The notes under the pieces were generated by a model. That model worked only from the letters and a program-made list of their open reading frames with translations. It did not search any database and was not told where the DNA came from. The translations under genes and the position numbers were made by a program. Positions 11,174 through 39,065 of a DNA stretch of 64,000 nucleotides are shown piece after piece. The DNA comes from Planotetraspora phitsanulokensis. Its GTDB lineage: Bacteria > Actinomycetota > Actinomycetes > Streptosporangiales > Streptosporangiaceae. Numbering within the stretch: the stretch's first letter is position 1; every line of letters starts with the position of its first letter. The stretch covers positions 62,001 through 126,000 of the forward strand of contig NZ_BOOP01000026.1 of assembly GCF_016863295.1 (NCBI RefSeq). Direction: 5' to 3'.

Positions 11174-11196
11174 TCCGTCATATTCACCTATTCCGG

Positions 11197-22399: not shown

Positions 22400-23440
22400 T
22401 CAGCGGGCGACGAGCTCGCGGGTCCGCTGCTGGGGCAGCCCGGCCAGCCTGCGCTGGCCGTCGGTCAGCAGCGCCGCGATGGGGCCGGGCTCACGGAGCC
22501 GGCTGAAGCGGTCGCGGTTGTACTTGCGCAGCCGTGCCGACCTGCGCTTGGACGCGGCGTCCTTGTACGCGGCCACGTGCCGGCGCTCGGGCTTGGGCGC
22601 CCCGGTGAGCTCGTACCCGTGGTGGGCCAGCCGCTCGCTGAGGACGTCCTCGCACAGGGCGATCTCCCACGGCTCGAGCCGACTGGCCCAGCTTCCCGTG
22701 CGGGCGGTGGTCACCTCCTGGTGGGTGTTGCTGTGCCACACCTTGTGCGAGGGCACGGCCACCTCGGCCATGTGCTGGGGCTGGCACATCGCCGGGTCGT
22801 AGTCCTCCCCGATGAACATGCACAGCTTCTTGAGCTCGGCCTCCGGGTCGGCCGTCAGGTCCTCGTAGCGGAGCTGGTAGAAGGTGTCGGCCGGCAGCTT
22901 GCGGGCGTGACGGCGGCCGAAGTCGATCGCCTCCGCCCAGTTGGCCATCGCGCCGATGCTGTCCGGCTTGTACCAGGGCATCTCCTTCAGGGAGGCGACG
23001 CAGTCGCGGCCGTCCCTGACGATGTGCACGAACTGGGCATCGGGGAACAGGCGCGTGAGGATCTCGACGTGCCGGTAGTAGCTGGGCCGCTTGTCGCCCC
23101 AGCGCGGCTTGCCGAACCGCTCGGCGTACGACTTGAAGACCATCCCGATGACCGAGCCGAGGCTGCCGGGGCCGAGCATGGCGGCCTGGACGAACTCGGC
23201 CGTGTCGAGGCCGAGCTCCCGGAACTTGGTGTTGCGCCCGTTGGCGATCCACTTCGCGAGCTTGCGGCGGTTGTCGGCCAGCCGCATGTCGCCGTACATC
23301 CTGCGCGAGAAGTACGCGGTTCCCACGAAGCGCGTCTCCGGTGGAACGGCTATGCGCTGGTGGGAGTGCAGCATGAGCTGCAGCATCGTGGTGCCCGAAC
23401 GCGGGCAACCGACCACGAATACCGGCCTGTCGGACTGCAT
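22400..23440 (-). CDS. PAPS-dependent sulfotransferase
   Basis: A 346-residue sulfotransferase. The 5'-phosphosulfate-binding loop is GCPRSGTTMLQLML (about residues 10-23) and the 3'-phosphate-binding motif is FVHIVRDGRDCVASLK in the middle; both PAPS contacts are intact. The C-terminal ~50 residues are Arg/Lys-rich. The ATG at 23440 has GGGGGA 8 nt upstream; the frame stays open further but without a supported start. It heads the left side of the surface-polymer cluster, next to a CDP-alcohol phosphatidyltransferase and a Stealth phosphotransferase, so a cell-surface glycan or lipid acceptor is likely. The acceptor is not determinable from sequence. Confidence 0.9.
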   Translation of the reverse strand: MQSDRPVFVVGCPRSGTTMLQLMLHSHQRIAVPPETRFVGTAYFSRRMYGDMRLADNRRKLAKWIANGRNTKFRELGLDTAEFVQAAMLGPGSLGSVIGMVFKSYAERFGKPRWGDKRPSYYRHVEILTRLFPDAQFVHIVRDGRDCVASLKEMPWYKPDSIGAMANWAEAIDFGRRHARKLPADTFYQLRYEDLTADPEAELKKLCMFIGEDYDPAMCQPQHMAEVAVPSHKVWHSNTHQEVTTARTGSWASRLEPWEIALCEDVLSERLAHHGYELTGAPKPERRHVAAYKDAASKRRSARLRKYNRDRFSRLREPGPIAALLTDGQRRLAGLPQQRTRELVAR

Positions 23441-23559
23441 GAGATCAATCCCCCGTTGTGAGTTAAGAAGCGTGATGGCCGGCCGCCGCCCCCGTGGAGG
23501 CGGCCCGCCGCTCGTGCACCGGACGTAAGGCTCCGGCGCGCGATGTGGAGATCCGCCGA

Positions 23560-24447
23560 TCAGACAAGGATCTGTTCCTTCTTCGGCGCGCTCTTGGGAA
23601 TCTGGCGCGAAGCCAGCCAAACGCGATAGATGAGGCTGATCTCGAAGGCCAGCAGCAGCGCGCCCGCGCCGATCGACGTCGGCACGAACGCCCATGAGCC
23701 GAGCAGAGGGGCGACGACGAACACCGCCGCCTCGAACTCGATCCCGCTGAAGAAATGTGTGCGTACGCGGTACTTGATGAGAGTGAGTCGGAACCGGTCG
23801 TACCAGGGGAACCGAGCGTGGAACGCCTTCTGCAGGTCGACCACCGCCTTGCCGTCCTCACGGTTCTCCTTGGCCTCCCGCGCCACCGTGAGCGCGTCCG
23901 TCTCCGGCCGGGCCTTGAGCACGTCCTCGACGAAGACCACCTGCGTCTGAGCTCTCGCCTTGGCCAGTGCGCGGGTGGCTTCCCTGACCTTCTTGAGCTG
24001 CGGCCCGTTGATGTAACGGAAGAAGTCCAGGAGGACGACGCCCACGCCCGCGATGAGGAAACCGTGGTCCCCCGTGCGCGCGTACTCGCCGACGCCGAGC
24101 CCGAAGGCGCAGCAGGCGAACCTGATCCGGTCGCCGACGAAGTCGAGCCAGAGACCGAACGGCGTCCCGGTCCCCTTCAAACGGGCGATCTTCCCGTCCA
24201 TGCAGTCGACCATGAAGCTCAGATAGAACAGCGCCGCTCCGATAGCCAGCTCTCCCACGCCGAACGCGGCCACGGAGCCGAAGCCCAAGAGCATCGAGAG
24301 CCCCGTGAGCGCGTTGGGCGTGAGAGAGGTGTGGTTCGCGACGAGCAGCGCGAGCCGACAGGCGATCGGGTCGACCATGAACACGGTCCACCAAGCGTCC
24401 CTCGACTTGCGAGTTGCGAGTATGTCGTCCAGCGTGTAGCGCCCCAT
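23560..24447 (-). CDS. CDP-alcohol phosphatidyltransferase family membrane protein
   Basis: About 295 residues. The full CDP-alcohol phosphotransferase signature D-x2-D-G-x2-A-R-x8-G-x3-D-x3-D is present (VDCMDGKIARLKGTGTPFG, then LWLDFVGD). Six membrane segments are spread over the protein, and a long soluble insert (about 170-225) rich in Ala/Lys/Glu separates the first and second membrane halves. Such enzymes move a phosphoalcohol from CDP to an acceptor alcohol; acceptor and donor here are unknown. ATG 24447 (MGRYTLDDILATR) is my choice. An in-frame ATG at 24519 would add a hydrophobic 24-residue leader. Confidence 0.88.
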   Translation of the reverse strand: MGRYTLDDILATRKSRDAWWTVFMVDPIACRLALLVANHTSLTPNALTGLSMLLGFGSVAAFGVGELAIGAALFYLSFMVDCMDGKIARLKGTGTPFGLWLDFVGDRIRFACCAFGLGVGEYARTGDHGFLIAGVGVVLLDFFRYINGPQLKKVREATRALAKARAQTQVVFVEDVLKARPETDALTVAREAKENREDGKAVVDLQKAFHARFPWYDRFRLTLIKYRVRTHFFSGIEFEAAVFVVAPLLGSWAFVPTSIGAGALLLAFEISLIYRVWLASRQIPKSAPKKEQILV

Positions 24448-24603
24448 GCAGGTAAGAATGACTACAGCGAGTAGCGCGACACCCGCACTTCGATAACAGG
24501 CAGGGCATCTCGTTGCCACTTCTTGACCGTCATCCCCACCTGGGTAAACCCTCCGCCAACGCCGTCAGCCATCCGTTACAGTCCGTGTCCGGGGGGAGAG
24601 ATC

Positions 24604-26211
24604 ATGCCGGTTATCACCTTGTACCGGCAGCTGCAGGGGCGGCTGCCATCCGGGGAGTCCACGCCGCGGTCGGCTCTGATCCGTGAGGACGCGAGCCCAC
24701 TTCAGGCGCAACGGGAAACCCTGGACATCGTCTGCAGGCGGCTGTCCGCCGCCAAAGTGGCCTACTTCTGCGTTCGTCCCATGCCGGGCCACCCGCCCGT
24801 CGTCGCCGTCGCACAGCGCGACCGCGAGCGGGCGCTCACCACGTTGGCCTCGAGCGGCAGGCCGCTGCTCGCCGCGCGACTGCCGTACGGCAAGGGGGCG
24901 AGGGGCCGGGCGCCCGAAGAGATCGGCCGGATGCGCCCGCTGAAGCGGGTGGCCGCGCAGCTGCACGACGCCTGGGCCGTGCGGGTGGGGCTGTACTTCA
25001 CCAGCCCGTCGCGAACCTTGACGATCGGCCCCGAACACGGCTGTGACCTGGAGTTCTGGGCCAAGCAGAAAGGCATGCTCATCGCGCCGAGGCCCAATCC
25101 CGCGTGCGCGAGCGTGCCGGCCAAGGCCAAGGCGGTCCAGGGGGGCGAGGAACTGTTCAACACGCTCGTGTCCGCGGGCCAGGGAGTGCGCACCTACCGG
25201 ACGCGTCCGGAGTTCACCCGGCGCCTGGTCGGCGACATCGACTTCCCGATCGACGCGGTCTACACCTGGGTCGACGGCGCCGACCCCGCATGGCGCGCCC
25301 GTCGCGACCAGGCCCTCGCCGAGGGCGGCGGGCCGACGGGCACGCTCAGCGAGATGGCCACGACCGAGGCCAGGTTCACCAGCAGAGAGGAGCTGCGGTA
25401 CTCCCTGCGATCGTTGCTGACGTACGCGCCGTGGATCAACCGCGTGTGGATCGTGACCGCCGGTCAGACACCGCCGTGGCTCGACACGACGCACCCCATG
25501 GTCCGCGTGGTGGATCACAAGGAGATCTTCAACGACCCCTCGGTGCTGCCGGTCTTCAACTCGCACGCGATCGAGACCCAGCTGCATCACATCGACGGGC
25601 TGGCCGAGCACTTCCTCTACCTGAACGACGACTTCTTCCTGGGCAGGCCGCTGCCGTCGCGGACGTTCTTCGAGGCGAACGGAATCACCCGGTTCTTCCC
25701 CAGCCTGGCGCACGTGCCGTTCGGCGCTCCCGAGTCCGAGGAGTCGCCCGTCCACGCGGCCGGCATGAACAACCGGCGCATGCTGGAGGACCTCTCAGGG
25801 CGAACGCTGACGCAGAAGCTGAAGCACGCCCCCTACGCCCTGCGCCGCTCCGTCCTGTACGAACTGGAGGAGCGGTTCAATGACGAGTTCGAGGCCACGT
25901 CGCGCAGCAGGTTCAGGCGCACCTCCGACATCTCGGCCCTGTCGTCACTGGTGCACTACTACAGCTATCTGAACGGCAGGGCCGTGCCGGGCAACGTGGA
26001 GTACACCTACGTGGACCTGGCGCTGCGCAAGACGCCGGCCAAGCTGCGCCGCATGCTGGCCAGGCGCTGGCACGACGCCTTCTGTCTCAACGACACCGCA
26101 CCGACCACGCCCGAGCAGGACGCGCTGCTGGTCCGCTTCCTCCGGGCCTACTACCCGACGCCGGTGCCGTTCGAGCTCGACCAAGGAGGGTCGCCCGCTC
26201 GCCGCTCGTAG
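24604..26211 (+). CDS. Stealth family polysaccharide phosphotransferase
   Basis: A 535-residue protein. Residues 1 to about 210 are a variable N-terminal region. The four Stealth conserved regions then follow: CR1 IDAVYTWVDGADPAW (about 216-230), CR2 SREELRYSLRSLL with WINRVWIVTAGQTPPWL (about 260-297), CR3 HFLYLNDDFFLGRPL (about 337-351) and a CR4-like FCLNDTAPTTPEQ near the C-terminus. Stealth proteins transfer hexose-1-phosphate from UDP-sugars, making phosphodiester-linked capsules. ATG 24604 follows a GGGGGGAGAG ribosome-binding site. It is divergent from the CDP-alcohol transferase gene, and its last 61 bp overlap the convergent GT-C gene. Confidence 0.92.
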   Translation: MPVITLYRQLQGRLPSGESTPRSALIREDASPLQAQRETLDIVCRRLSAAKVAYFCVRPMPGHPPVVAVAQRDRERALTTLASSGRPLLAARLPYGKGARGRAPEEIGRMRPLKRVAAQLHDAWAVRVGLYFTSPSRTLTIGPEHGCDLEFWAKQKGMLIAPRPNPACASVPAKAKAVQGGEELFNTLVSAGQGVRTYRTRPEFTRRLVGDIDFPIDAVYTWVDGADPAWRARRDQALAEGGGPTGTLSEMATTEARFTSREELRYSLRSLLTYAPWINRVWIVTAGQTPPWLDTTHPMVRVVDHKEIFNDPSVLPVFNSHAIETQLHHIDGLAEHFLYLNDDFFLGRPLPSRTFFEANGITRFFPSLAHVPFGAPESEESPVHAAGMNNRRMLEDLSGRTLTQKLKHAPYALRRSVLYELEERFNDEFEATSRSRFRRTSDISALSSLVHYYSYLNGRAVPGNVEYTYVDLALRKTPAKLRRMLARRWHDAFCLNDTAPTTPEQDALLVRFLRAYYPTPVPFELDQGGSPARRS

Positions 26212-27674
26212 CGCACGACGAACAAGCCTCGTGAGGTCCAGCGGGCCCCGGGGGTGTAGGAACCGTTCAGGACGTCGAGTTGCCAGTTGCGGGTCCGCCC
26301 GGTGTGGCCGACCACCCACACGGTGGCGACACCGGCCAGGCGGCGGGCCAATGCCCGGCGCCCGACATGGCGCCCGCCGAAGCTGCCGTCGCGTATCGGC
26401 GACCTGGACAGGGCGACGTCGTCCAGGCGCGCGAAGACATCCGGGTACACGAGCTCGTACTTCCTGACCTTCCCGGGGATGAACACCACCCCGTCGCCCG
26501 GTCGCGCCGAGGACGCGAGCACCGCGGCGACGGGTTCGGGGTCGTCCTGCCTGCCGTCGGCCCCCCGCGTCGCGATCTGACCCGGGATCGACAACCCGAA
26601 CGCCACGCAGAGCAGGGCGACGGCGGCCTTCCGGGGAAGAGCGGCCAGCGCCGCCCCGGCGAGGAGCGCGGCGGCGGGCACGCTGCACACGACGTACCTG
26701 AAGACGTAGACGGGATGCCCCGCCCAGGAGACGGCCATCAGCACGAGTGGCGGAATCAACAGCCAGGGCACCGTCAGCCGGGTCAGCTCGGTGAGCGGCG
26801 CACGCGTCGGCGCGCCGTGCCTGGCCTGCCGCGTCCGCCGGATCCCGCGGGCGACGCCGAAGATCGCGAGACCCCACACCAGGGGGGCGACCCCTGCCCA
26901 CGCGGGAGTCAGCGCGCCGAGATCTCCGAAGAGCTGGACGGCGAGCATGCCGGCGTCCCCCGCGTCGGGCGCGGAGATCCAGCCGATCTGCGCGCTCTGC
27001 CCGGACGCGAACCAGGCGAACGGCGCCATCGCGGCCGTCGCCAGGGCCGCGGCGGCGGCCCATTTCGCGAAGGACCGCCGGGACCAGGCGACGTAGACGC
27101 CGTGCGCCCCCACCACGAGGAACGCGAACAGGTTCAGGAAGGCCAGGGCCGCGAGGGCCGTGCCGTACAGCAGGAACGCCCGTCGTGACGGCTCCCGGAC
27201 CGCGCGCAGGAGCAGCAGGGTCACGCCGATCGTCGCCGCCATCGTCATCGGATACGGCCTGGCCTCCTGCACGTACCGGGAGAAGACCGGTGTCACGGCC
27301 ATCAGGGCTCCGCCGTACAGACCTGCCCGCGGCTCGCCGAGCGCCCGACCGAGGGCGCCCACGCCCGCGGCGGCGAGCGCCCCGGCCAGGACGGACGGCA
27401 GGCGAAGCGCCACCTCGCCGGTCCCGAAGACCACCGCGACGACGTGCATGAACGCGTAGTAGACGCCGTGCACCGCGTCGACGCCGCTCAGCAGGTGCGC
27501 GAGCTGGAACGGCGTCCTGCTCACCGCGCTGACCGTGGCGGCCTCGTCCCGCCAGACAGGCGGGCCGCCCAGGTCCCACAGCCCGGCGACGAGCGCGAGC
27601 GCGGCCGGTACGGCGACGCAGGCGCTCGGCCGGGGAACGGACAGGCGTGCCAGGCGGGGGACGACGAGGTTCAT
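26151..27674 (-). CDS. GT-C (GT39-like) membrane glycosyltransferase
   Basis: A 507-residue polytopic protein with about ten to eleven hydrophobic helices. The first periplasmic loop carries the GT-C metal-binding acidic motif in VWRDEAATVSAV. A later VQEARPYPM segment and a soluble C-terminal domain (about 380-507) are typical of family 39/83-like, polyprenyl-phosphate-sugar-dependent transferases that work on the outer face of the membrane. Its ATG overlaps the stop codon of the upstream GT2-TagF gene by 4 bp (ATGA), so it is translationally coupled to polymer synthesis. Its 3' end overlaps the convergent Stealth gene. Confidence 0.88.
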   Translation of the reverse strand: MNLVVPRLARLSVPRPSACVAVPAALALVAGLWDLGGPPVWRDEAATVSAVSRTPFQLAHLLSGVDAVHGVYYAFMHVVAVVFGTGEVALRLPSVLAGALAAAGVGALGRALGEPRAGLYGGALMAVTPVFSRYVQEARPYPMTMAATIGVTLLLLRAVREPSRRAFLLYGTALAALAFLNLFAFLVVGAHGVYVAWSRRSFAKWAAAAALATAAMAPFAWFASGQSAQIGWISAPDAGDAGMLAVQLFGDLGALTPAWAGVAPLVWGLAIFGVARGIRRTRQARHGAPTRAPLTELTRLTVPWLLIPPLVLMAVSWAGHPVYVFRYVVCSVPAAALLAGAALAALPRKAAVALLCVAFGLSIPGQIATRGADGRQDDPEPVAAVLASSARPGDGVVFIPGKVRKYELVYPDVFARLDDVALSRSPIRDGSFGGRHVGRRALARRLAGVATVWVVGHTGRTRNWQLDVLNGSYTPGARWTSRGLFVVRYERRAGDPPWSSSNGTGVG

Positions 27675-30600
27675 GTCAGCATCCTGGAGACCACTCGTTC
27701 GGAGGCGCGGCCGTCGTCCCACGGGCAGAAGGCATATCGGAAGTCGTCGTATCTGACCTTGTAAGACGATGGGTCGCCATATTTCAGTACTTCGATGACG
27801 TCGTCCGACGTGCGGACGATCGGCCCGGGGGCGTCGGCCTCGAAGTCGAAGTAGAAGCCGCGCACCTCGTCGCGGTACCGCTCGAGGTCGTAGGCGAAGA
27901 ACACCATCGGCCGGCCCGTGCAGGCGAAGTCGAACAGGGCCGACGAGTAGTCCGTGACGAGCACGTCGGCGGCGGCCAGCAGATCGGCCATATCCGGAAA
28001 TCTCGAGACATCGATGGCACCCGGCGGGACGGACATGCGGTCGGCCACCAGGTAGTGCGCCCGGACCAGCAGCACGTGGTCGTCGCCCAGGGCGTCCACG
28101 GCCCGGCCGGCGTCGAGCCGCAGCCGGAGGTCGCCCCGGGCGCCCGGCTCGCCGTCCCGCCACGTGGGCGCGTAGAGGACGATCCGCTTGTCCTCGGGGA
28201 CGCCGAGGAGGCGGCGCACCCGCGCGCCCTGTTCCTGGCGGAAGAGCACGTCGTTGCGGGGATAACCCGAGTTCAGCACCTCCCCGGGAAAGCCGAAGGC
28301 GCTGCGCAGGATCGGTGTGGAGAACGGGTTGGGCGAGATCAGCACGTCCCACATCGCGGCGTAGCGCTCCAGGTCGCCGTCCAGGTCCCGCTGCGCGTAC
28401 GGCATGGCGCCGATGTCGCGGCCCAGGCGTTTGAGCGGCGTGCCGTGCCAGGTCTGCACGAACAGCTGGCCCGGACGCTTGCGGTACCAGCTGGGCTGGG
28501 TCCTCCGGTTGGCCACGACGAAACGGCTGGTGCGCAGCGCGTGCTCGTGTTCGCGGGAGCCGTACAGGACCGTTCGGACGCCCGGCGGCGGCGCGAACTG
28601 CCCGTCCCGGGTGACCCAGATCAGCTCCGTGCCGGGATGACGGCGCGCGAGCTCCTCGGAGATCGCCCTTGGGTTGCAGGAGTACTGGCCGCCTCCGTAG
28701 CTGTCGAACAGCGCGGCGTCCCCGAGCCGTCCGCCGCCGCGGAGCAGTCCGCCCGCGGGTCCGCCGTGGAACGGGCCGCCCCTGCGCCGCCGCAGGGTCG
28801 CGCGACGGCCGCGCTCGTCCGGTCCCAGCGCGGGCCTGACCGCCAGGCTGAGCTCCCCGGCCAGGTTGGTGCGGAAGGAGATCTCGTGGATCGGGGTCGT
28901 GCGTGGCCCGGGCAACTCCGCCACCAGGCCGGGGCTCAGCCGCAGCCATCGGCCGCCGGACGACACCCGCCATGTCCCGCTGCGCAGCGGCAGTCCCCCG
29001 GCCGTCCTGCCGACCGTCGCCGACCAGCGGCCGCCTTCGCGGCGCAGCGGCCACTCGTGGCGTTCCGCCCCGCACGCCGCCACGATCCGGTCCCCGTCGC
29101 CGTCCCCCACTCCGGACAGGACCAGTTCGTCGGCGTCGGTCCACTCGACGGCGGTCACCTGGTCTCCCGGGTGCGGCGCCGGGGCCGGATGGGCGGCCGC
29201 CCTGAGGACCAGCCCGTCCTCCCGGGTGAGGGTGACGCGCACCCCGCCGGCGCTGAACGTCCGCTCGCCCGCACTCCGGGCGCCCGCGGCACGGCCGGAC
29301 CGGGTCACCCCGTGGGCCGAGACGCGGACGTGGAGCGTCCACCGGCCGGACCGCAGGTCGTGTGCTGCGACCTCGGTCGCGAATCCCGACATGTCATGGC
29401 ACACGGCGGACTGTCGGGAGTTCGCGGTCACATCCGGCCGCGGGATCCGCGTGACAGGCAACTCGATCCGCTCACCGCCCCGCTGGAGCCAGAGCTCAAG
29501 GCGGCTGCGCCGGCTGCCGAGATGGGCGATGTAGGCATGCCCCTCGATCCGCACCACGCCGTCGCCGCCGCTTCGCACGTCGTCGACACGCGCGCGGAGC
29601 TTGAGGTCGTGCGCCGCCGAGAAGACCTCGTCGGAGATCCTGTCGTCGTACAGGAACGGGTAGTCGTGGAACCAGCGGGGGCGTAACAGGCCCCGCCGGA
29701 CGACGCCGCAGTCCATGACCTGCTCTCCGGCGAACCGCTGAACCTCCGACAACTCCTTCGCCATTCCCCGGATCAGCAGGAAGAACATGAGCCGCCTGAG
29801 CGCGGTCGACCCGTCGGCCGCGTGGGGGTGCAGCGTCGCGAGGGCGGGCGCGAGGGCCCAGAGCCCGCCGAGGTCCCTCCGGACGGCGGCGGTGTCGAGG
29901 ACCTCCGCGACCGCCTCCTCCACCTCCCCGTCCCAGTGCGTCCTCAGCCGGGGGTCGTGCCGCTCCAGCAGGGCGGAGACGTCCAGCATCGCCGCCAGCC
30001 GCCGTTCGGGGTCGGCGGGTTCGTCCGCCGCGGGGCGGCACAGCCGTACGACGTCGGCGAGCACGTCCGTCGACCGGGAGAGCACGTGCGCGGGAATGGC
30101 GACGGGGAAGTCCGCGGGCACGCCGTCGGGGAACCGGAACCGGTGTTCGTCCCAGAACGTGCGGCGGAAGACCTTGTTCGCCATCGATCTGTCATGGATC
30201 AGCTGGGGAAGCCGCGTTATGTGCGTGCGGGGGACGCCGACGCCGTCGGTACCCGGAAGCCAGGCGGAGTCCTCCACGGTCTCCCCCGGCGTGCGTCCCA
30301 CGGACAGCGGAACGGGCAACGGAGCGGACCTTCCACAGGCCAGATCCGACCCGGTGACCTCGAGGCTCTCCACGAGCGCCCGGTAGGCCCCGGTGGGCAC
30401 CACGGAATCGGCACCGGCGAAGGCCAGGTAGGTCCCTCTCGCCCGCTCGGCGCCCGCGTTCCTCGCCGCGCCCGCGTCCCGCCCCTCCGGCACGACGACG
30501 GACGACCACCGATCTCGTACGGCTCCCGCCCCCTGACCGGCGAGGACGATCTCGATCCCCGTGAGGGCCTGGCCCCTGAGCGAGTCGAGGCACTCCCCGA

Positions 30601-30706
30601 GATGCTCCTCCTCGCCCAGGACGGGCACGACCACCGAGAGCACGGGGGCAGGCGTCGACCGGCATGCGGATGCATGGTCCATCAATCTCGATCCCGTCGT
30701 CTCCAT
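27671..30706 (-). CDS. GT2 (degenerate) / TagF-like glycerophosphotransferase fusion
   Basis: A 1011-residue protein. Residues ~22-240 are a GT2 fold with key motifs lost: the VDDGS position reads VLAGQGAG (54-61), the DxD position reads FAGADS (96-101), and the acidic ED segment after the FRFP sequence is absent. A beta-rich middle part follows (about 370-640). Residues ~660-1011 are an intact CDP-glycerol glycerophosphotransferase domain: QTWHGTPLK, GYPRNDVLF, LYAPTWRD, LVRAHYL and VTDYSSALFDFACTGRP. Both histidines known to be essential in TagF enzymes are present. ATG 30706 lies 12 nt after the preceding fusion gene, and the GT-C gene follows with overlap. It probably builds or decorates a poly(polyol-phosphate) wall polymer. 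Confidence 0.9.
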   Translation of the reverse strand: METTGSRLMDHASACRSTPAPVLSVVVPVLGEEEHLGECLDSLRGQALTGIEIVLAGQGAGAVRDRWSSVVVPEGRDAGAARNAGAERARGTYLAFAGADSVVPTGAYRALVESLEVTGSDLACGRSAPLPVPLSVGRTPGETVEDSAWLPGTDGVGVPRTHITRLPQLIHDRSMANKVFRRTFWDEHRFRFPDGVPADFPVAIPAHVLSRSTDVLADVVRLCRPAADEPADPERRLAAMLDVSALLERHDPRLRTHWDGEVEEAVAEVLDTAAVRRDLGGLWALAPALATLHPHAADGSTALRRLMFFLLIRGMAKELSEVQRFAGEQVMDCGVVRRGLLRPRWFHDYPFLYDDRISDEVFSAAHDLKLRARVDDVRSGGDGVVRIEGHAYIAHLGSRRSRLELWLQRGGERIELPVTRIPRPDVTANSRQSAVCHDMSGFATEVAAHDLRSGRWTLHVRVSAHGVTRSGRAAGARSAGERTFSAGGVRVTLTREDGLVLRAAAHPAPAPHPGDQVTAVEWTDADELVLSGVGDGDGDRIVAACGAERHEWPLRREGGRWSATVGRTAGGLPLRSGTWRVSSGGRWLRLSPGLVAELPGPRTTPIHEISFRTNLAGELSLAVRPALGPDERGRRATLRRRRGGPFHGGPAGGLLRGGGRLGDAALFDSYGGGQYSCNPRAISEELARRHPGTELIWVTRDGQFAPPPGVRTVLYGSREHEHALRTSRFVVANRRTQPSWYRKRPGQLFVQTWHGTPLKRLGRDIGAMPYAQRDLDGDLERYAAMWDVLISPNPFSTPILRSAFGFPGEVLNSGYPRNDVLFRQEQGARVRRLLGVPEDKRIVLYAPTWRDGEPGARGDLRLRLDAGRAVDALGDDHVLLVRAHYLVADRMSVPPGAIDVSRFPDMADLLAAADVLVTDYSSALFDFACTGRPMVFFAYDLERYRDEVRGFYFDFEADAPGPIVRTSDDVIEVLKYGDPSSYKVRYDDFRYAFCPWDDGRASERVVSRMLT

Positions 30707-30718
30707 CCCGCCGGCGCG

Positions 30719-33700
30719 TCAGGCGAACAGCCGGTCGGCCACCCGGGCGGCGGCCCGGCCGTCGTCCATCGGGCAGTAGCGTGCGGCGAAGGCGTCGCCC
30801 AGTCCCGCGTACTTCTCCGCGACCTCGCCGAGGTCCCGGATCGCCTCGGCGACCTCGTCCGCGGTGCTCAGCCAGGGGCCCGGCGCCTCGGCCCGGAAGT
30901 CGAGGTAGAGGCCGGTCGGCGGGACGTCGACGTGGAACAGGATGGGACGGCCCGTGACGGCGAAGTCGAACATCGCCCTGGAGCAGTCCGTCACCAGCGC
31001 GTCGGCGGCGAGATAGAGCTCGTGGCAGTCGGGGAACGCCGACACGTCGAGCACGCCGGCGGGCGTGGCCCGGCCCTCGTCCGCGCGCCGGGCGAGCAGC
31101 ACCCGGTCGTCACGGAGCGCGGCGGCGACGAACTCGAGGTCGAGCGTCTCCTCCCCCTCCGGGGCGTACAGGACGAGCCGCCACCCGTCCGGGACTCCGA
31201 GCCTCCTCCTGACACGCGCGGCCCCCGCTTCGTGTCCCGACGCCCGCAGGACGTCGTTGCGTGGCAGGCCCGCCTCCACGATCTCCCCATGGAACCCGAA
31301 GGCCTGCCGCAGCAGCGGCGTCCACCAGGGGCCGGCCGACAGCAGGTGGCTCCACTGCGCGACCTGCCTGGACAGCCGCCCATGCCGCACGGCTCCGTCG
31401 TGGCCGATCTTCCCCAGCGGGGACCCGTGCCAGGTCTGCAGGACCGTCTGACCGGGCCGACGCTCGAACCAGGGCGGCAGATGGTCGTTGGTCACGACGT
31501 AACGGCAGCGGGCGAGCGCCTCGTAGTACTCCCGCCCGTGCGTCCGCACCGCCTCCACATCACCGGGGAGCGCCACCTGGCCGTCGTGCACGTTCCACAG
31601 GACGGTGAGCTCCGTCCCCCGCCGCCTGAGCTCCTGGTAGATGGCACGGGGGCTGTCGGAGAACGCCGTGCCGTCGTCGCAGTCGAACAGGACCGCGGGC
31701 CACATCGGCTTTTCGCGCGACGCCGGATAGGACTCCTTGCGAAACGCCCGCTGAGCCCGGACGCCCCGCTCGTCGCCCGACAGATCGCCGCTCACGGCGA
31801 GGACCGCGTGCCCGGCGCCGTCCCCGTCGAGCGTGAAGGTGCGCCGGGCCGTCTCGTGGACCAGCGCGCAGCCGGGCGTGAACTCGACCGGCAGGTCCCG
31901 GTCCGAGCCCCGGACCCGCACGGCCAGGCCGTACCGGCCGCGCGGCAGCGGAAGCCGGCCCAGTGGCGAGCCGACGGCCTCCGGCGTGAGCCGCGCCCGG
32001 AACCGGGCGCCCGTCCCTTCGACCGGCGCCGTCCGCTCGAGTCTGCCGTCGCGTGCGCGCACCACCAGGGCGGCCGGCTCGTACGGCTCGGCGAAGCCGC
32101 CCTCGATCAGCAGTTCGCCGCCGGGGAGCCATTCCGCCAGGTCCACGAACGCGGCTGCGGGCTGGTCGCGCAGCATGAGGCCGCCGCCATGGTCGCGGAA
32201 CACGACGACCTCCCGCCCGGCGAGGCCATGACGCCCGGCCGGCAGGTCCTCGGCGAAGGTCACCGGAGTCACCACTCCGTCGGCCGATCGCACCTCGACC
32301 CGCCACTCGGCGGACGGGTCCGCCAGCCCTCTCTCGGTGACGGACCTCCTGCGTGCGGGAAGGACGTCACGCAAGTCGATGTCGGCCGAGAACACGCGGC
32401 CGTCGGTCCTGATCGGATAAAGCAGCGGCACGCCGCCGGGCCTGCGCGTCACGCGGAGCACCGGCTCTGGGCCGAGGCCCCCGGCGACGCGATCCCCGGC
32501 CCTGCGCCCTCCGGCGTGCGCCGACCGGCTCCGGGCGTCCCCCTTGGCGGCCGCGCCTCCCTTTGCGGCCGCGCCCCCCTTGGCGGCCGGGCCGTCCGCC
32601 ACGATCTCGCCCTCCAGGCGCAGGCGGCCGCCCCACAGGCTCTGCCTGACGACCCGCGCCCGCTCGCCGTCCACTCGCAGAGCCAGGACCCCGGCCTCCG
32701 TGAAGTGTGGCACCACGTACCGGCCCCGCCCGGCAGACCGGGCGCCCACCTGCGTGGAGCGGCCGGCTCCCGGATCGGCGAGCGGCCCCCGCACCACCGC
32801 GCCCCGGTGGAGCAGCCGCATCTCGACGTGCCACAGTCCCTCGTCGGCGGCGAGCCTCCTCGGATCGATCGTGAGGCGGAACCCGCCCCAGTCCTCGCGG
32901 CCGTCGTGCCCGCCCCGGGACACCTTCGAGCGCCTGACCGACGCACCGACGCGGACGCGCCGCCCGGTCTCCTCATGGACGACCGACGCGAAGACCTGCT
33001 GGTGGAACCGCCGGGTCGGGCGCAGATGACGCGGCGTCGCCCGTCCCTCCACGACCAGCCTGCCCTCCCGCCAGCCGATCTGGTCGATCCGGTGGTGGAG
33101 GGTGTCGGCGAAGCGCGAGAGCGCGGCGGGCAGCCGTTCCAGCAACGGGGTGGCCAGGTACGACCGGCCGAACCGTCGCACGAGCCTGTCCCCCGACGCC
33201 GCCTGACGGTCCCAGGTGACGACCTCCAGCAGGTCGGCCGCCCGCCTGTGCCGGACGAGGTGCCATTCCAGCCGCCTGAGGGCCGGCAGCCCGTCCAGCA
33301 CGGCGGGCGAGACGCGGCCCAGATACTCGCCGGCGAGATCGAGGAAGCGCTCGCGGTAGGCCTCCGACGCCTGGTCGAGGACGTCGACGAAGTTCGTCAG
33401 GTCGCTGTCGAGGACGGCGTGGTCCCAGGCGGGGATGTGCGCGGCGAGCCGTTCGGCCTCGAGGAACCTCCGCACCGACAACACGGCGGAGAAGCGGTCG
33501 GTGAGGTGCTGCACCCGGGTCTTCTTCTGGGTGATGGACCGGCTGCCCGCGGCGCGTTCACGCCACAGGTACACCTGGGCCGGCAGGACGTCGACCGAAC
33601 CCGCGAGGACGTGGCCGCGCAACGCCACGAGCATGTCCTCGTACAGCACGCCGTGGGGGAAGCTGAAGCCGTGCGCGTCCCAGAAGGACCGGCGCCACAA

Positions 33701-34180
33701 TTTGTTGGTGACCTGCCGGTCCCTCATCAGGCCTGCGCTACGCGTCACGTGCGTGGTGGTCGCCGGCCCGGCGAAGACGGCCCGGTGCATCGCCGACTGC
33801 CGGACCCGCCGTCCGTCGTACCTGCCGACGTTGCCCGTGGCCAGGTCGGAGCCGGACTCCTGCAGGCTCCCCAGCATGTACTCGAGCGCGTACGGCGGAA
33901 GCAGGTCGTCGCCGTCGAGGAAGGCGAGGAAGTCGCCGGTCGCGTGGCGGACCCCCGTGTCGCGCGCCGCGCCCAGCCCGCGGTTGGCCTGGCGGATCAA
34001 CCGGAACCGCCCGTCCCGCTCGGCGAACCGCCCGGCGATCTCCGCGCTCGAGTCCGGGGACCCGTCGTCGACCATGACGACGTCGAGGTCCTCCCAGGTC
34101 TGCGCCGCCACCGACTCCAGGCAGGCGGGAAGGTAGAGCTCCACGTCGTGGATCGGGACGATGACGCTGATGCGAGGCAC
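30719..34180 (-). CDS. GT2 / TagF-like fusion with degenerate phosphotransferase
   Basis: An 1153-residue paralogue of the next gene. The N-terminal GT2 is canonical: VIVPIHDVELYLPACLESV, VVMVDDGSPDSS, FLDGDD and, after the NKLWRRSFW segment, YEDM. The middle is a long beta-rich region with an AAKGGA repeat linker near 545. The C-terminal TagF-like domain keeps QTWHGSPLG and GLPRNDVL, but LYAPTWR is changed to LYAPEGEE, the second catalytic-histidine segment reads LARRADEG, and TDYSS reads TDCSR. Glycerophosphotransfer by this copy is therefore doubtful while its glycosyltransferase looks active. It shares an operon with the neighbouring GT2 genes. Confidence 0.88.
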   Translation of the reverse strand: MPRISVIVPIHDVELYLPACLESVAAQTWEDLDVVMVDDGSPDSSAEIAGRFAERDGRFRLIRQANRGLGAARDTGVRHATGDFLAFLDGDDLLPPYALEYMLGSLQESGSDLATGNVGRYDGRRVRQSAMHRAVFAGPATTTHVTRSAGLMRDRQVTNKLWRRSFWDAHGFSFPHGVLYEDMLVALRGHVLAGSVDVLPAQVYLWRERAAGSRSITQKKTRVQHLTDRFSAVLSVRRFLEAERLAAHIPAWDHAVLDSDLTNFVDVLDQASEAYRERFLDLAGEYLGRVSPAVLDGLPALRRLEWHLVRHRRAADLLEVVTWDRQAASGDRLVRRFGRSYLATPLLERLPAALSRFADTLHHRIDQIGWREGRLVVEGRATPRHLRPTRRFHQQVFASVVHEETGRRVRVGASVRRSKVSRGGHDGREDWGGFRLTIDPRRLAADEGLWHVEMRLLHRGAVVRGPLADPGAGRSTQVGARSAGRGRYVVPHFTEAGVLALRVDGERARVVRQSLWGGRLRLEGEIVADGPAAKGGAAAKGGAAAKGDARSRSAHAGGRRAGDRVAGGLGPEPVLRVTRRPGGVPLLYPIRTDGRVFSADIDLRDVLPARRRSVTERGLADPSAEWRVEVRSADGVVTPVTFAEDLPAGRHGLAGREVVVFRDHGGGLMLRDQPAAAFVDLAEWLPGGELLIEGGFAEPYEPAALVVRARDGRLERTAPVEGTGARFRARLTPEAVGSPLGRLPLPRGRYGLAVRVRGSDRDLPVEFTPGCALVHETARRTFTLDGDGAGHAVLAVSGDLSGDERGVRAQRAFRKESYPASREKPMWPAVLFDCDDGTAFSDSPRAIYQELRRRGTELTVLWNVHDGQVALPGDVEAVRTHGREYYEALARCRYVVTNDHLPPWFERRPGQTVLQTWHGSPLGKIGHDGAVRHGRLSRQVAQWSHLLSAGPWWTPLLRQAFGFHGEIVEAGLPRNDVLRASGHEAGAARVRRRLGVPDGWRLVLYAPEGEETLDLEFVAAALRDDRVLLARRADEGRATPAGVLDVSAFPDCHELYLAADALVTDCSRAMFDFAVTGRPILFHVDVPPTGLYLDFRAEAPGPWLSTADEVAEAIRDLGEVAEKYAGLGDAFAARYCPMDDGRAAARVADRLFA
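32536..32592. repeat. In-frame 18-bp tandem repeat in the 1153-residue fusion
   Basis: Three imperfect 18-bp units containing TTGGCGGCCG or TTTGCGGCCGCG encode AAKGGA-AAKGGA-AAKGDA in a linker between the middle region and the next beta-rich part. It is a low-complexity hinge with no catalytic meaning, and probably arose by slippage. Confidence 0.75.
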
Positions 34181-34232: not shown

Positions 34233-35735
34233 TCAGCGGTGGACGTTTCCCCGCATCGCCGCCCCGAGGACGCGCGCCCTGGTCACGGCACAGCGCAGCG
34301 GTCCGGTCCTGGTGACGACGAGCCCGGCTCCCTCCGGGGTGCCGCGCAGCCTGACGCGGCGTCCCTCGAAGTCGGCGACCACGCGCTCGTCCCGGATGAC
34401 GCTCAGCGGCAGCCCGGTCTCGGCTCCGAACCGGTCGCGGGCGACCAGCCGCAGCCCCGCCTCGCCGTACGGCAGGGCGCGTTCGGGCAGGTCGCAGGAC
34501 CAGGAGAAGAACCCCGGCCTGGCCCGGGTCACGTGCACCTCCCGGCGGCAGACGGCGTCGCCCACCTCGAGCAGCAGGTCGGAGCGCACCTCTCCCTGCG
34601 TGGCGAGGAGCCCGGGCGCGAGGACCTGGCCGCCCACCCGGAGCAGGGTGGCGTGGCCGGCCGGGCGAAGCCTGCAGACGACGGCGGTCAGCGGCTGGAC
34701 CCTGAGCAGGTCGCCGAACGTCTCGAGATCAGGCAGGTCCAGGTAGACGCGGCCCGAGAGCACACGGAGCCGCCCCCGGGCGACCGGGCGCCGGATCGTC
34801 TCGGGCTCCCCCAGGCAGGTCCCGATCGCGCGCAGCCCGTCGTCCAGGCGGCCGCCGCGCCTCGCCAGGGCCTCGGTGAGGATCTCGGTCATCACCGGCG
34901 GGGAGATCTCCTTGAACATGATCGACGTCCGGTGGGCGAAGTCGGCGAGCCCGGCGTCGTCGAGAGTGGCCGCGGCGGCCTCGGCGTGACGGAGCTGCGT
35001 GGCGCCCACCCAGCGCATGAGAGCCCGCCGCACCTCGGGCGGACGGCCCTCACAGTGCCCGGCGACCTGTTCGGCGTCCGCTAGACGTGCCATGATCCCG
35101 TCCTCCTCGAGGGACGGATCGTCCCCGGAGTACGGGGCCTTGACGCGAGCCGCGTCCTGGTCGCGGGCCGGCCTGCAGCAGATCTGGTCGCTCAGCACCA
35201 GGCGGCGCGCGTCGAGCATGAGCGCCAGCAGGGCCGGGACGCCATGGGACAGATCGGCCCGTGTGGTCGCCACCAGCTCACGCGCGAAGAGCTTGTTCGA
35301 GGCAGGCCCGCCGCAGACGATGTCCGGCGCCTCGGCGACGGAGCCGATGACCCGCTCGCCCAGCGCGAGCTCCTTGCGCCACGCGCAGCCGGGAGCGGTG
35401 CCGGCCATGTCACCGACGACCACGTCGGCGTCATGCCGGGCGGCCAGCTCCATCAGGCCGTCGAGCCCTCCGGGCACGTACACGTCGCCGGCGTCGAGGA
35501 AGGCGAGATGGCGGCCCTGCGCGCCGGCCACGGCGGCGGTGACGGTCTCGGCCCGGCGCATGGGCTTGCCGAGCACACGGACCTCGTCCGCGAGGTCTCC
35601 GCGGGCACCCTCCTCGACGAGGATCACCTCGACGCGGTGGCGGAACCTCTGGACGTCGATGGAGTCGAGAGCGTCTCGCAGCCACCCGCCCGCGTCCCGC
35701 GTCGGCAGGATCACGCTCACCTCAGGCTTTGCCAT
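34233..35735 (-). CDS. GT2-like glycosyltransferase with C-terminal beta-rich region
   Basis: A 500-residue protein. The GT2 fold occupies residues 1 to about 220 (SVILPTRDAGGWLRDALDSI). The VDDGS position reads VEEGAR and the DxD position reads LDAGDVY, so catalysis is uncertain. The SNKLFAREL segment matches the NKxFxRxFW region of the two big fusions, so this is a relative that lacks the glycerophosphotransferase domain. The remainder (about 300-500) is beta-rich and resembles the middle region of the fusions. ATG with a GGGGGGAC stretch upstream. It sits between the fusions and the other GT2 genes on one strand, 52 bp from the next. Confidence 0.8.
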   Translation of the reverse strand: MAKPEVSVILPTRDAGGWLRDALDSIDVQRFRHRVEVILVEEGARGDLADEVRVLGKPMRRAETVTAAVAGAQGRHLAFLDAGDVYVPGGLDGLMELAARHDADVVVGDMAGTAPGCAWRKELALGERVIGSVAEAPDIVCGGPASNKLFARELVATTRADLSHGVPALLALMLDARRLVLSDQICCRPARDQDAARVKAPYSGDDPSLEEDGIMARLADAEQVAGHCEGRPPEVRRALMRWVGATQLRHAEAAAATLDDAGLADFAHRTSIMFKEISPPVMTEILTEALARRGGRLDDGLRAIGTCLGEPETIRRPVARGRLRVLSGRVYLDLPDLETFGDLLRVQPLTAVVCRLRPAGHATLLRVGGQVLAPGLLATQGEVRSDLLLEVGDAVCRREVHVTRARPGFFSWSCDLPERALPYGEAGLRLVARDRFGAETGLPLSVIRDERVVADFEGRRVRLRGTPEGAGLVVTRTGPLRCAVTRARVLGAAMRGNVHR

Positions 35736-35817: not shown

Positions 35818-37236
35818 TCACGTGCGCGTCAGAAGCGGTATAAGCACGCGTCGCAGAGAGGTGCGGATTGGCCGGGCGGGTTCCCTCTTCCGGCCGTCAT
35901 GTCCCGTCTCCTGGGGCGGGGCCGGGGCGGGAGCCTCGCGCCGGACGATTCCCCAGGTCTCTCCGGCCTCCCAGAGCGTCGCGAACGTCTCGTGGACCAG
36001 ATCGTCCAGGTCGTCCCCCGGTAGCGCGAGGCGACGGGCCCGGTTCACGGCGGCCGTGCGCTCCAGCCGGGCGCTGACGACGCCCTCCTGTTCGTCGAGG
36101 GCCAGCGACAACACGCCGAGGCCCCTCCGCTCGGCGAACGCGAGGATCGATTCCAGGGTCTTCCGCGAAGGCACCCAGCCCGGCGGGCAGTGGAAGCGGA
36201 ACGGGACGGGGAGTTCCGGGTCGGGGACGTGCCCGGCGAACGACACCCGGGTCTCGCCCGCGTAGGCGTCCCGGATCATCCGCGCTCCGCCGCGCGGCAG
36301 GCCGGCCACGATCACGACGACGTCGGGCAGGTCGCTCGCGAGCAGACCGTCGACCGTGGCCCGCACGTCCTGGACGGCCGCGCCTTCCGCGGGCACGACG
36401 GCCTCGACGTACGGCACGAGGTAGGTCCGCCCGGGCCGCCTCCTGAGCCGGCGCATCGACGGCACGCGCTCGGCCAGGTACGACCGGTCGGGCCCGGCGA
36501 CGGGGCCGCCGACCCGCACGCTCCGTGCACTCCTTTCCGCCACGAATACCGCCCCGGCCTGGGCGAGCCGGTATCCCAGCTCGAGATACTCCTGCGCCGG
36601 CTGAATTCCGCCACTCGCGCGCAGCAGGGTCGCCGGAACCGAGGCGGGGGCGCCCCCCATCGCGGTGAACGCCTTCGCCCCCGCCTCCCGCAGATCCGAG
36701 GCTCCGTCCCACTCTTGCCTGCGCTCCAGGGCTCCGGACCGGCCCGCGAACCCCTCGACCGACCCGGCCTCGACGGCGGCGAGCGCCTCGGCGTCGAGGC
36801 TCCCGCCGTGCGCGCCGGGCACGTGCAGCGGACGGCTCAGGACGACTAGGTGGTCCGCGAGGTGATGCCAGCGCATGTGCGCCTCGATGTGCTCGGGCGG
36901 GACGAGCAGATCGGCGTCGAGCAGATGGACGACGTCGCCGTCGCACGCGCCAGGCGTCCACGGCGTTCCCGGCTCCGGCCTGACGACCCGGATGCGCTCG
37001 GGCACACGGCCGGAAAGCGAGATCGGCGGTCCGTCACCGGCGTCAACGACGATGACCTCCATCAGATGGCGTGGATAGCTCTGGGACGCGAGGCCGGCCA
37101 GGGTCAGCGGCAACGTCCGCTCGCGGCCGCGTGTGGAGACGATCACGCTGACCGTCAGCGTCGGCGTCCACGCACCCGGGTCCGGCGGATCGCCGAGCAC
37201 TCCGTAGTCGTTGAGCGGGATCCGGATGCCGGCCAT
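35818..37236 (-). CDS. Glycosyltransferase family 2 protein
   Basis: A 472-residue protein with a GT2 domain at residues ~25-260. It has VSVIVSTRGRERTLPLTLAGL, an acidic VVDAGDG at the nucleotide-binding position and the DxD-like HLLDADLLVP. GT-A fold features continue to about 280. The C-terminal 200 residues look like a second, weaker Rossmann-like unit and end in a basic tail. ATG 37236 starts 5 nt after the stop of the upstream 607-residue GT2 gene, so the two are co-translated. Sugar donor and acceptor are unknown. Confidence 0.85.
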   Translation of the reverse strand: MAGIRIPLNDYGVLGDPPDPGAWTPTLTVSVIVSTRGRERTLPLTLAGLASQSYPRHLMEVIVVDAGDGPPISLSGRVPERIRVVRPEPGTPWTPGACDGDVVHLLDADLLVPPEHIEAHMRWHHLADHLVVLSRPLHVPGAHGGSLDAEALAAVEAGSVEGFAGRSGALERRQEWDGASDLREAGAKAFTAMGGAPASVPATLLRASGGIQPAQEYLELGYRLAQAGAVFVAERSARSVRVGGPVAGPDRSYLAERVPSMRRLRRRPGRTYLVPYVEAVVPAEGAAVQDVRATVDGLLASDLPDVVVIVAGLPRGGARMIRDAYAGETRVSFAGHVPDPELPVPFRFHCPPGWVPSRKTLESILAFAERRGLGVLSLALDEQEGVVSARLERTAAVNRARRLALPGDDLDDLVHETFATLWEAGETWGIVRREAPAPAPPQETGHDGRKREPARPIRTSLRRVLIPLLTRT

Positions 37237-37241
37237 CCGCG

Positions 37242-39065
37242 TCACCCCCGCCTGCCGTACGCGGGGGTGCGCTCCATCAGGGCGTTGAAGACCAGGCCGC
37301 GCCACTGCTCCTCGTAGGACGTGAGGAACGACTGCACGGGCGGCTGCCACGTGTGCTCGCGCGCGTTCCGGCGGCGCAGCAGGTAGTTGAAGCCGTGGGA
37401 GCGGTAGATCCGTCCCCCTGCGGCCCGCACGGCGTCGAGCAGTTGCCCGTCGACCGTGCGCGGGATGGGCCGGAACCCGCCGACCGCGTCGAACATCGCC
37501 CGGGTGATCACCATGGTTCCCCCGGCCACGAAAGGGGCGAACCGCTCCGTGCCGACGCGTCTCCTGATCGTCACGTCGAGGGGCTCCAGGTAGACGAACT
37601 CCGGGGCGGAGCCGACCAGGTCCGCACCGGAGTAGCGCTGGGCCAGCAGGAGGTCGGCGAGGTGGTCGGGCCCATACCAGTCGTCGTCGTCGACCTTGGC
37701 GAGGAACGTCCCCGAGGCCACGGCGGCCATCCGGTTGAGGACCGAGCCGAAGGGCAGCCCGCCGGGGGCCTCGACCACCGTGACCGGGAGGTCCGTGGCG
37801 GGCACCGCGGCGACCGGCAGTCCGTGGAGTCCCACGACGAGCTCCAGCCGTACGCCGCGCTGGCCTTCCATCTGCTCGATCGCGAAGGGGATCATCTCCG
37901 GCCTGCGCGTGCACAGCAGGACCGACACCAGCGGCTCGGGAGGCACGGGCAGGCCGGCGGACGAGGCCACGGCACGCCAACGGGGGACGGCGCCGTGGAC
38001 GCGCAGTGCGATCCTGCGCAGCCGGATCGCGATCTCCTCCCGCCGCTGGTCGGTCGCCAGATCCTCCTCGCACACCGCCGCGACGGCTTGGGCCAGCTCG
38101 GGTCCGAGGGCGGCGTCGCGTTCCGCGTCGGGCCTGGCGATCACCGGGACCCCGGCGGCGGCCAGTCCGGCGACGATCCTGGCGGCCGCCCTGGCCGTGG
38201 CGGGCCCTCCCTCTCCGGCAGGCGGGATCACCACGCCCCTGACGTCCCTGAGGCGCGCCACCTCGACGTCCGTCAGCTCTCCGCGTGGCCCCAGCCGTAC
38301 GAGCACGTCCGATCCGCAGATCACGGCGGGGCCGGAGCCGAGCGTCGCGACAGAACCCGTGGGGTGCCGTCTGAAGCCGATGGGGTTGACCACGGCCTCG
38401 TCGACGGGCGGCAGCGCGCCGGGATCGACGCGATCACGCCCCAGGTTCAGGTGGGGACCGCCCGCACGCACGTCGGCGCGTTCGCCGTCGAGGCGGAGCA
38501 GCAGGTCGCAGCCGGGGGCGTCCCGGCGCTCCGGCGTCCGGAGCGCGCGGTCGGCGGGGGCCGCGTCGGCGTCGCCGGGCCGCCACTCACCGGCGTACTC
38601 CCCTGCGAGGCCGATCACCGGCTGGCCCGGCTGGCGGCCCGTCCCGAGAAGGCCCCGCGCCACCGACGCGACCACCTCGCCCGCCGCGACGGGTTCGGTG
38701 AACGACGCGTCGAGGTGCCAGCCGGTGGCCGTACGGGTGACCCGCAGGTCGGCGAGCCGCGCCCAGGCGTCCGATTGGCCGGGGACGGGCGTCGGCGGCG
38801 GCGCCCACAGGGACGTCTCCGCCAGCACGACACGGATCCGTCCGGCGCTCGGAAGGAGCCCGCGCATCGGGACGAGCACGCGCAGGTCCCGCAACGTCCG
38901 GACGGCGACGACCACGCAGTCGAACGGCTCTCGCGGCGCGCCCTCCGCGTCGAGGTCATGCCAAGGACCGCTGAAGCCGTCGACCCGGCCGAACGACTCC
39001 GGGCAGTGGCCGAATCCGACGCTCGTTCCCCATGTTCGCGGCGATCGGGGGGTGGAACGGATCAA
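37242..39065 (-). CDS. GT2 glycosyltransferase with large uncharacterised N-terminus
   Basis: A 607-residue protein. The C-terminal GT2 domain (about 375-590) is canonical: PLVSVLLCTRRPEMIPFAIEQM, the DxD motif in FLAKVDDDDWYGPDHL, and GGTMVITRAMFDAVGGF. Residues 1 to about 360 are unrecognised. They contain a segment VNPIGFRRHPTGSVATLGSG and a possible alpha/beta unit VRGVVIPPAGEGGPATARAA. The start is TTG 39065, supported by GAGGAGGAGG (complement of 39071-39080) 5 nt upstream. First of the co-transcribed GT2 series running toward the fusions. Confidence 0.85.
   Translation of the reverse strand: MIRSTPRSPRTWGTSVGFGHCPESFGRVDGFSGPWHDLDAEGAPREPFDCVVVAVRTLRDLRVLVPMRGLLPSAGRIRVVLAETSLWAPPPTPVPGQSDAWARLADLRVTRTATGWHLDASFTEPVAAGEVVASVARGLLGTGRQPGQPVIGLAGEYAGEWRPGDADAAPADRALRTPERRDAPGCDLLLRLDGERADVRAGGPHLNLGRDRVDPGALPPVDEAVVNPIGFRRHPTGSVATLGSGPAVICGSDVLVRLGPRGELTDVEVARLRDVRGVVIPPAGEGGPATARAAARIVAGLAAAGVPVIARPDAERDAALGPELAQAVAAVCEEDLATDQRREEIAIRLRRIALRVHGAVPRWRAVASSAGLPVPPEPLVSVLLCTRRPEMIPFAIEQMEGQRGVRLELVVGLHGLPVAAVPATDLPVTVVEAPGGLPFGSVLNRMAAVASGTFLAKVDDDDWYGPDHLADLLLAQRYSGADLVGSAPEFVYLEPLDVTIRRRVGTERFAPFVAGGTMVITRAMFDAVGGFRPIPRTVDGQLLDAVRAAGGRIYRSHGFNYLLRRRNAREHTWQPPVQSFLTSYEEQWRGLVFNALMERTPAYGRRG

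Follow-up and report, generated by a model that had tools for sequence, protein, structure and literature searches.

The stretch of DNA analyzed here, referred to as the window, is 64,000 nucleotides long and comes from Planotetraspora phitsanulokensis (contig NZ_BOOP01000026.1, positions 62,001 to 126,000). It contains two large open reading frames, genes A and B, on the same strand with 12 bp between them (Table 1). Each encodes a fusion of an N-terminal glycosyltransferase family 2 (GT2) half, a linker, and a C-terminal half of the TagF type. Protein A matches the Pfam families GT2 (PF00535) with 48.4 bits over residues 24-126 and TagF (PF04464) with 341.6 bits over residues 663-1009. The corresponding values for protein B are 126.2 bits (residues 5-165) and 221.4 bits (829-1152). 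The family cut-off of PF04464 is 22.1 bits, and both TagF halves score above it.

The two proteins are altered in opposite halves, as follows. The TagF half of A has H754 in QTWHGTP, APTWRD at 846, H884 in VRAHYL, and TDYSS at 918. Alignment to Staphylococcus epidermidis TagF (3l7i) equates H754 and H884 with H444 and H584, which are named as catalytic in PMC5974469. Other deposited TagF variants have Asn and Ala at the two catalytic His positions. The GT2 half of A reads LAGQGAG at 55, AGADS at 97, and VPADF at 196. That is, AGQG replaces VDDGS and about ten loop residues are missing, G stands in place of the first D of DxD, and the ED motif has kept its D but has A instead of E. Judged by these three motifs the half is degenerate, yet it is still recognized by PF00535. 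Protein B has the opposite pattern. Its GT2 half carries VDDGS at 37, LDGDD at 88, and YED at 180. In its TagF half the first catalytic His is kept (H918, in QTWHGSP) and the second is gone, the segment reading LARRADEG at 1029; APEGEE at 1006 has lost TWR, and TDCSR at 1064 stands for TDYSS. The C-terminal half of B thus reads as a pseudo-TagF. The motif losses in A and B are not a matter of chance: a set of 16 comparison fusions shows no variation at eight TagF columns, and six GT2 columns are each conserved in 13 to 16 members of the set. An earlier note on this DNA, which had read A and B as a split pair of half-active enzymes, is borne out in its observations. Every motif it quoted is present in the two frames, and all its losses stand, with the correction that A loses the E but keeps the D of ED.

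For relatives, A was searched against 149 genomes and residues 1-787 of B against 120 genomes, from 68 genera, of the same actinomycete family. The family as used here holds Microbispora, Microtetraspora, and Herbidospora, which the National Center for Biotechnology Information (NCBI) places in Streptosporangiaceae. It takes in Nocardiopsis and Allonocardiopsis too, and is thus wider than the NCBI family. Forty stretches around the best matches were fetched, so that the pair counts are lower bounds. An adjacent B-A pair is present in at least 14 genomes of six genera. In all 14 pairs, the GT2 motifs of B and the TagF motifs of A are intact, and the TagF half of B is degenerate or deleted; 11 of the 14 B proteins lack one or both of the catalytic His. 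The GT2 half of A is degenerate in eight, deleted in two, and intact in four (G064, G157, G178, and G041; in G157, Q replaces the E of ED). No pair among the 14 has the opposite polarity, with the TagF half of A or the GT2 half of B lost. The full reciprocal state occurs in ten genomes of four genera, namely four of the window genus, G042, three of Microbispora, and G037 with G086; the consistent loss of opposite halves that the earlier note had suggested looking for in related genomes is thus found. Among named records, Microbispora sp. H11081 and M. hainanensis show the reciprocal state, and in the M. triticiradicis record the locus ends at the contig edge. In G064, G157, G178, and G041 the split looks incipient, as judged from the motifs, and Microtetraspora fusca is a named record of this state. 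The stretch around the first His of B in G157 and G178 is unaligned in the profile alignment and reads QTRHG in the full alignment.

Three genomes have gone further. In G037 and G086, A is an open frame of 785 and 801 residues, respectively, in which a stub of the GT2 start is followed by a gap up to the linker and only TagF is matched in Pfam; these forms arose by internal deletion from a former fusion. In G042, B is an open frame of 879 residues with no TagF match in Pfam. Since the degenerate half has been deleted outright in these genomes, the pattern argues that this half is not needed for catalysis in the species concerned.

Genes that lack the adjacent partner provide a comparison. All six A-type genes without an adjacent B have both halves intact (G054, G030, G036, G085, G169, and Herbidospora yilanensis L089). 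A copy of B elsewhere in the first five genomes is unlikely, as the best match to B there is 38-46% identical. Eight B-type genes without A all keep their GT2 motifs, one with E for the first D of DxD. The sister species G001 has no A in its genome, and two weakly matching GT2 genes of the locus, GT2d and GT2e, are also gone from the locus (L068, 5256-13043). Its B is still an open frame, but DxD, the E of ED, and the TagF motifs are lost. This is the pattern that a dependence of B on A would give, in one case. The only full-length PF04464 domains of the window genome and of G002-G004 are those of A and B. One or two other matches per genome are partial, at about 35-42 bits; in the window genome, the third match scores 41 bits and spans 100 out of 367 positions. 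Because no other full-length domain is found there, A must supply the TagF activity in these four genomes, if that activity is needed.

Selection on the halves was compared by the ratio of nonsynonymous to synonymous substitution rates (dN/dS), given as pairwise medians per half; the comparisons within a group are not independent. For A, the GT2 half exceeds the TagF half in the window genus (0.40 vs 0.17, higher in 6/6 comparisons) and in Microbispora (0.32 vs 0.20, 10/10). Among G064, G157, G178, and Microtetraspora, where the GT2 half of A is intact, the values for A are 0.30 vs 0.35, with GT2 higher in 3/10. For B in Microbispora, it is the TagF half that is higher (0.38 vs 0.22 for GT2, 10/10). 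The degenerate half is therefore relaxed for A in both groups tested and for B in one of three.

We propose that two ancient GT2-TagF fusion polymerases were brought into one cell-surface polymer locus, where redundancy would have let the GT2 half of A and the TagF-type half of B decay. The GT2 half of B would add a sugar, and the TagF-type half of A a phospho-unit, either a polyol phosphate or a sugar phosphate, to the same growing chain. The pair would do in trans the work of one intact fusion. The data behind this proposal are the complementary motif state, its conservation, the deletion of the dead half in three genomes, and the relaxed selection just described. Inactivity of the halves that lost their motifs, a shared chain for A and B, and the chemistry of the product are inferred; a stable physical complex of the two is possible. 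It is probable, in our judgment, that B and A extend one chain in trans, since engineered half-dead mutants of related polymerases do so in vitro: according to PMC5974469, polymer synthesis is restored when a GT-dead mutant of Cps1B or Cps7D is combined with a TagF-dead one.

The origin of the pair can be approached from trees and from locus layout. In trees of the TagF halves (83 of 182 rows) and of the GT2 halves (85 rows), both of them quick searches with long-branch warnings, A and B fall in separate clades. Both trees arrange the genera similarly, as joint inheritance predicts, though without full resolution. A recent tandem duplication was rejected, as A and B are not nearest relatives in the tree of either half. 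Three forms of the locus are seen, as follows. The A-type locus runs guaA-acyltransferase-A-Stealth-CDP-OH_P-sulfotransferase, where CDP-OH_P denotes the CDP-alcohol phosphatidyltransferase family. The B-type locus runs GT2e-GT2d-B-CDP-OH_P-sulfotransferase, and the fetched stretches are without guaA and acyltransferase. The third form is merged, as in the window. A and B are thus ancient paralogues by the trees, probably joined by the union of two cassettes and not by local duplication, as the three locus forms suggest. Two ideas of the earlier note have to be adjusted here. It had supposed that each copy kept the opposite activity after a duplication, and the separate clades and the merged appearance of the locus speak against this. 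It had also named, as evidence against itself, a family in which all members look alike whatever their partner. The TagF half of B decays in some genes without A as well, so that this loss is not strictly driven by the partner, and A-type genes without an adjacent B keep both halves.

Other tandem pairs were also surveyed. Same-strand tandem pairs of TagF-domain proteins number 54, drawn from 118 sequences less five duplicates. Twelve are reciprocal, 19 have lost GT2 in the second copy only, six have lost TagF in the first copy only, 13 are intact in both, and four are of other kinds. One reciprocal pair, from Kitasatospora phosalacinea (L144), lies outside the A and B clades. In Actinomadura, tandem fusions are found (L094, L097, L099, L102, L104, L105, L106, L108, L121, and L158) in which only the GT2 half of the second copy is degenerate and both TagF halves are intact. 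A set for Kitasatospora was built by searching 150 genomes of its family; from the 38 stretches fetched (L227-L264), 36 fusions could be scored. Every one of them carries DxD and ED, and one (G226) is truncated ahead of VDDGS. In 23 of the 36, the first His of the TagF half is changed to Gln, Leu, Thr, Val, or Ile with the rest of the domain conserved, and the change has occurred at least six times on the Kitasatospora tree. A TagF-only protein directly adjoins 26 of the 36 fusions, with both His kept in all 25 readable cases. These genes form a second, separate pairing of a GT2-only with a TagF-only protein. It is tempting, if still tentative, to propose that a bifunctional alternating polymerase has become an obligate two-protein enzyme at least twice independently, in A/B and in the Kitasatospora fusion with its TagF-only neighbor, each partner having one live half and one dead or missing half. 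Such enzymes might then be a natural version of the Cps1B/Cps7D trans-complementation and a bacterial parallel to EXT1-EXT2.

Several observations weigh against the proposal that A and B act in trans on one chain. Both His are kept in the TagF half of B in 3/14 pairs, all within the four genomes where the GT2 half of A is intact. The GT2 half of A in G042 has lost the VDDGS loop, yet DxD and ED are kept, so that its inactivity is less sure. Of the eight B-type genes that lack A, three have Arg in place of the first TagF His and one (G166, in which the TagF half is truncated) has no such residue. Because it is seen without A, the decay of this half predates the pairing or is in part independent of it, and is not strictly driven by the partner. 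The TagF half of B is not relaxed in the window genus (GT2 0.23 vs TagF 0.21, GT2 higher in 5/6) or in the group of G064, G157, G178, and Microtetraspora (0.32 vs 0.30, 10/10); being as constrained as the live half in the window genus, it suggests a structural role there. All ten pair-bearing genomes searched outside the window genus carry a further full-length PF04464 domain elsewhere. The B-type locus has only one flank in common in the stretches seen. When 28 TagF halves, A-type and related ones, are placed on a careful tree, the presence of an adjacent B and the loss of GT2 require a single change each; the A/B lineage therefore counts as one origin, and the association would rest on that origin and the Kitasatospora case. 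In the latter, no association is seen between having a TagF-only neighbor and losing the first His (17/26 with one, 6/10 without). GT2d and GT2e could be alternative suppliers of the sugar. Finally, the proposal is a prediction from sequence.

The role of GT2d and GT2e leads to the possibility that A and B belong to the same pathway as separate enzymes, the TagF half of A pairing with GT2d or GT2e and B acting as a glycosyltransferase for side chains or the linkage unit, its TagF remnant being structural. Both genes are present in the merged loci (the G037 stretch ends inside GT2d) and in 5/8 B-type stretches, and in G001 they went from the locus along with A, while B stayed. B-type genes also keep GT2 and lose TagF motifs even without A. 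However, the absence of A in G001 coincides with the DxD loss of B, as if B depended on A, and the two genes match PF00535 weakly in comparison with B. We consider separate roles unlikely. Another possibility is that the altered halves are changed rather than dead, binding or transferring another donor or holding the acceptor chain. The purifying selection on the TagF half of B in the window genus is in keeping with this, as is that on the degenerate GT2 half of gene C. Against it, the altered half has been deleted outright in G042 (TagF of B) and in G037 and G086 (GT2 of A), and the lost residues differ between genera, which points to decay rather than to a new shared active site. A new function of these halves seems improbable.

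Simple modular decay would explain the pattern if either half were lost whenever any other gene in the genome covers its activity, with adjacency and reciprocity being incidental. The one-sided losses among the 54 tandem pairs, the repeated change of the first His in Kitasatospora irrespective of a partner, and the further PF04464 domains in ten of ten genomes outside the window genus are all consistent with this. Further full-length PF04464 domains are also present in G061, G156, G009, G162, and G089, the five searched of the eight genomes with a B-type gene and no A. However, the four pair-bearing genomes of the window genus have no other full-length PF04464 domain, and A-type genes lose their GT2 motifs only where B adjoins. 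Incidental decay is therefore doubtful, in our opinion.

If A and B do act in trans, the graded natural series of intact fusion, decaying half, deleted half, and decay after loss of the partner illustrates a route by which a polymerase with two activities may turn into an obligate pair. The proposal also makes a testable prediction of the enzymes responsible for wall polymer synthesis in these actinomycetes. For each of the two genes, "bifunctional GT2/TagF" as an annotation can be wrong about one half. No description of such pairs was found in the literature, in a search of titles and abstracts that did not cover most subscription journals. S. epidermidis TagF is a single-activity polyglycerol-phosphate polymerase. 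Residues 355-710 of its structure (3l7i) align with the TagF half of A, both catalytic His included, and residues 2-109 resemble residues 2-107 of the GT2 half of B (38.5 bits), giving it a GT2-like N-terminus with NDGS and DADD. To our knowledge, the nearest eukaryotic analogue is the EXT1-EXT2 heparan sulfate co-polymerase, and we know of no relation between its families and those of A and B. EXT1 and EXT2 are two related two-domain glycosyltransferases, one EXT2 domain being a pseudo-domain (PMC9675754); the structure of their complex is solved and one of its four domains is dead, whereas in A/B, known from sequence, two of four look dead, reciprocally.

Likenesses are also found among bacterial polymerases. 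Cps1B, Cps7D, and Cps3D have GT and TagF-type domains in one chain, like A and B, and the mutated GT-A residues of Cps1B are N-terminal to the TagF ones, which is the A/B order (PMC5974469). In contrast, both halves of these proteins are naturally active, and A and B are two half-degenerate actinomycete versions known here from their genes. The same source gives the product of GT-A/TagF proteins as an inferred poly(oligosaccharide phosphate), and by this analogy the donor for the TagF half of A could also be a sugar phosphate. In Campylobacter jejuni HS1.09, according to PMC11924219, TagF-type and GT domains alternate, as would those of A and B, to make a glycerol-phosphate/galactose chain, and the glycerol-phosphate transferase domain has also been purified alone. 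HS1.09 differs in being one protein with both domains active and in having a GT4 domain, where A and B have GT2.

The coordinates of the locus are collected in Table 1.

Table 1. Genes A and B and the neighboring genes of the locus (positions in the window).
Feature	Position	Strand	Description
Gene A	27671..30706	-	1011 residues; degenerate GT2 half (about 20-330), linker, intact TagF-type half (about 660-1011)
Gene B	30719..34180	-	1153 residues; intact GT2 half (about 1-330), long linker, degenerate TagF-type half (about 825-1153)
Gene C	34233..35735	-	third GT2-plus-linker protein, without TagF half
GT2d	35818..37251	-	weak GT2 (PF00535) match, 28.0 bits; coordinates are those of the query open frame
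GT2e	37242..39065	-	weak GT2 (PF00535) match, 23.9 bits
Acyltransferase (PF01757)	39198..40412	-	locus border, adjoins guaA
PMT_2-type glycosyltransferase	26151..27653	-	directly downstream of A; coordinates are those of the query open frame
Stealth-family protein	24523..26211	+	beside A, conserved
CDP-alcohol phosphatidyltransferase-family protein	23560..24519	-	member of the locus
Sulfotransferase	22400..23695	-	member of the locus

No CDP-glycerol synthase of the TagD type (TIGR01518) scores above the cut-off in 12 genomes, and five genomes of the window genus are without any match. In the window genome, an LCP (LytR-CpsA-Psr) gene lies near a gene that joins an IspD-type cytidylyltransferase to a short-chain dehydrogenase (L208:8434-9834 and 11083-12600). 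As a maker of a ribitol as opposed to an erythritol donor, this fusion falls below the curated cut-off of every discriminating model listed. G001 has one strong IspD-type gene, and G000, G002, G003, and G004 have two each. The weak third PF04464 protein of the window genome, 658 residues long, is encoded at L207:7478-9454, close to the second IspD-type gene; its match to the family is partial (39.5 bits), and the PDB gives no match to it. A plasmid collection contains no record in which 80% of B is covered at a single place. The GT2 motifs of gene C are degenerate in the window genus (VEEGA, FLDAGD, and no ED) and intact in G157 and G178; dN/dS of the degenerate half is 0.20-0.26 (G000 compared with G002, G003, and G004).

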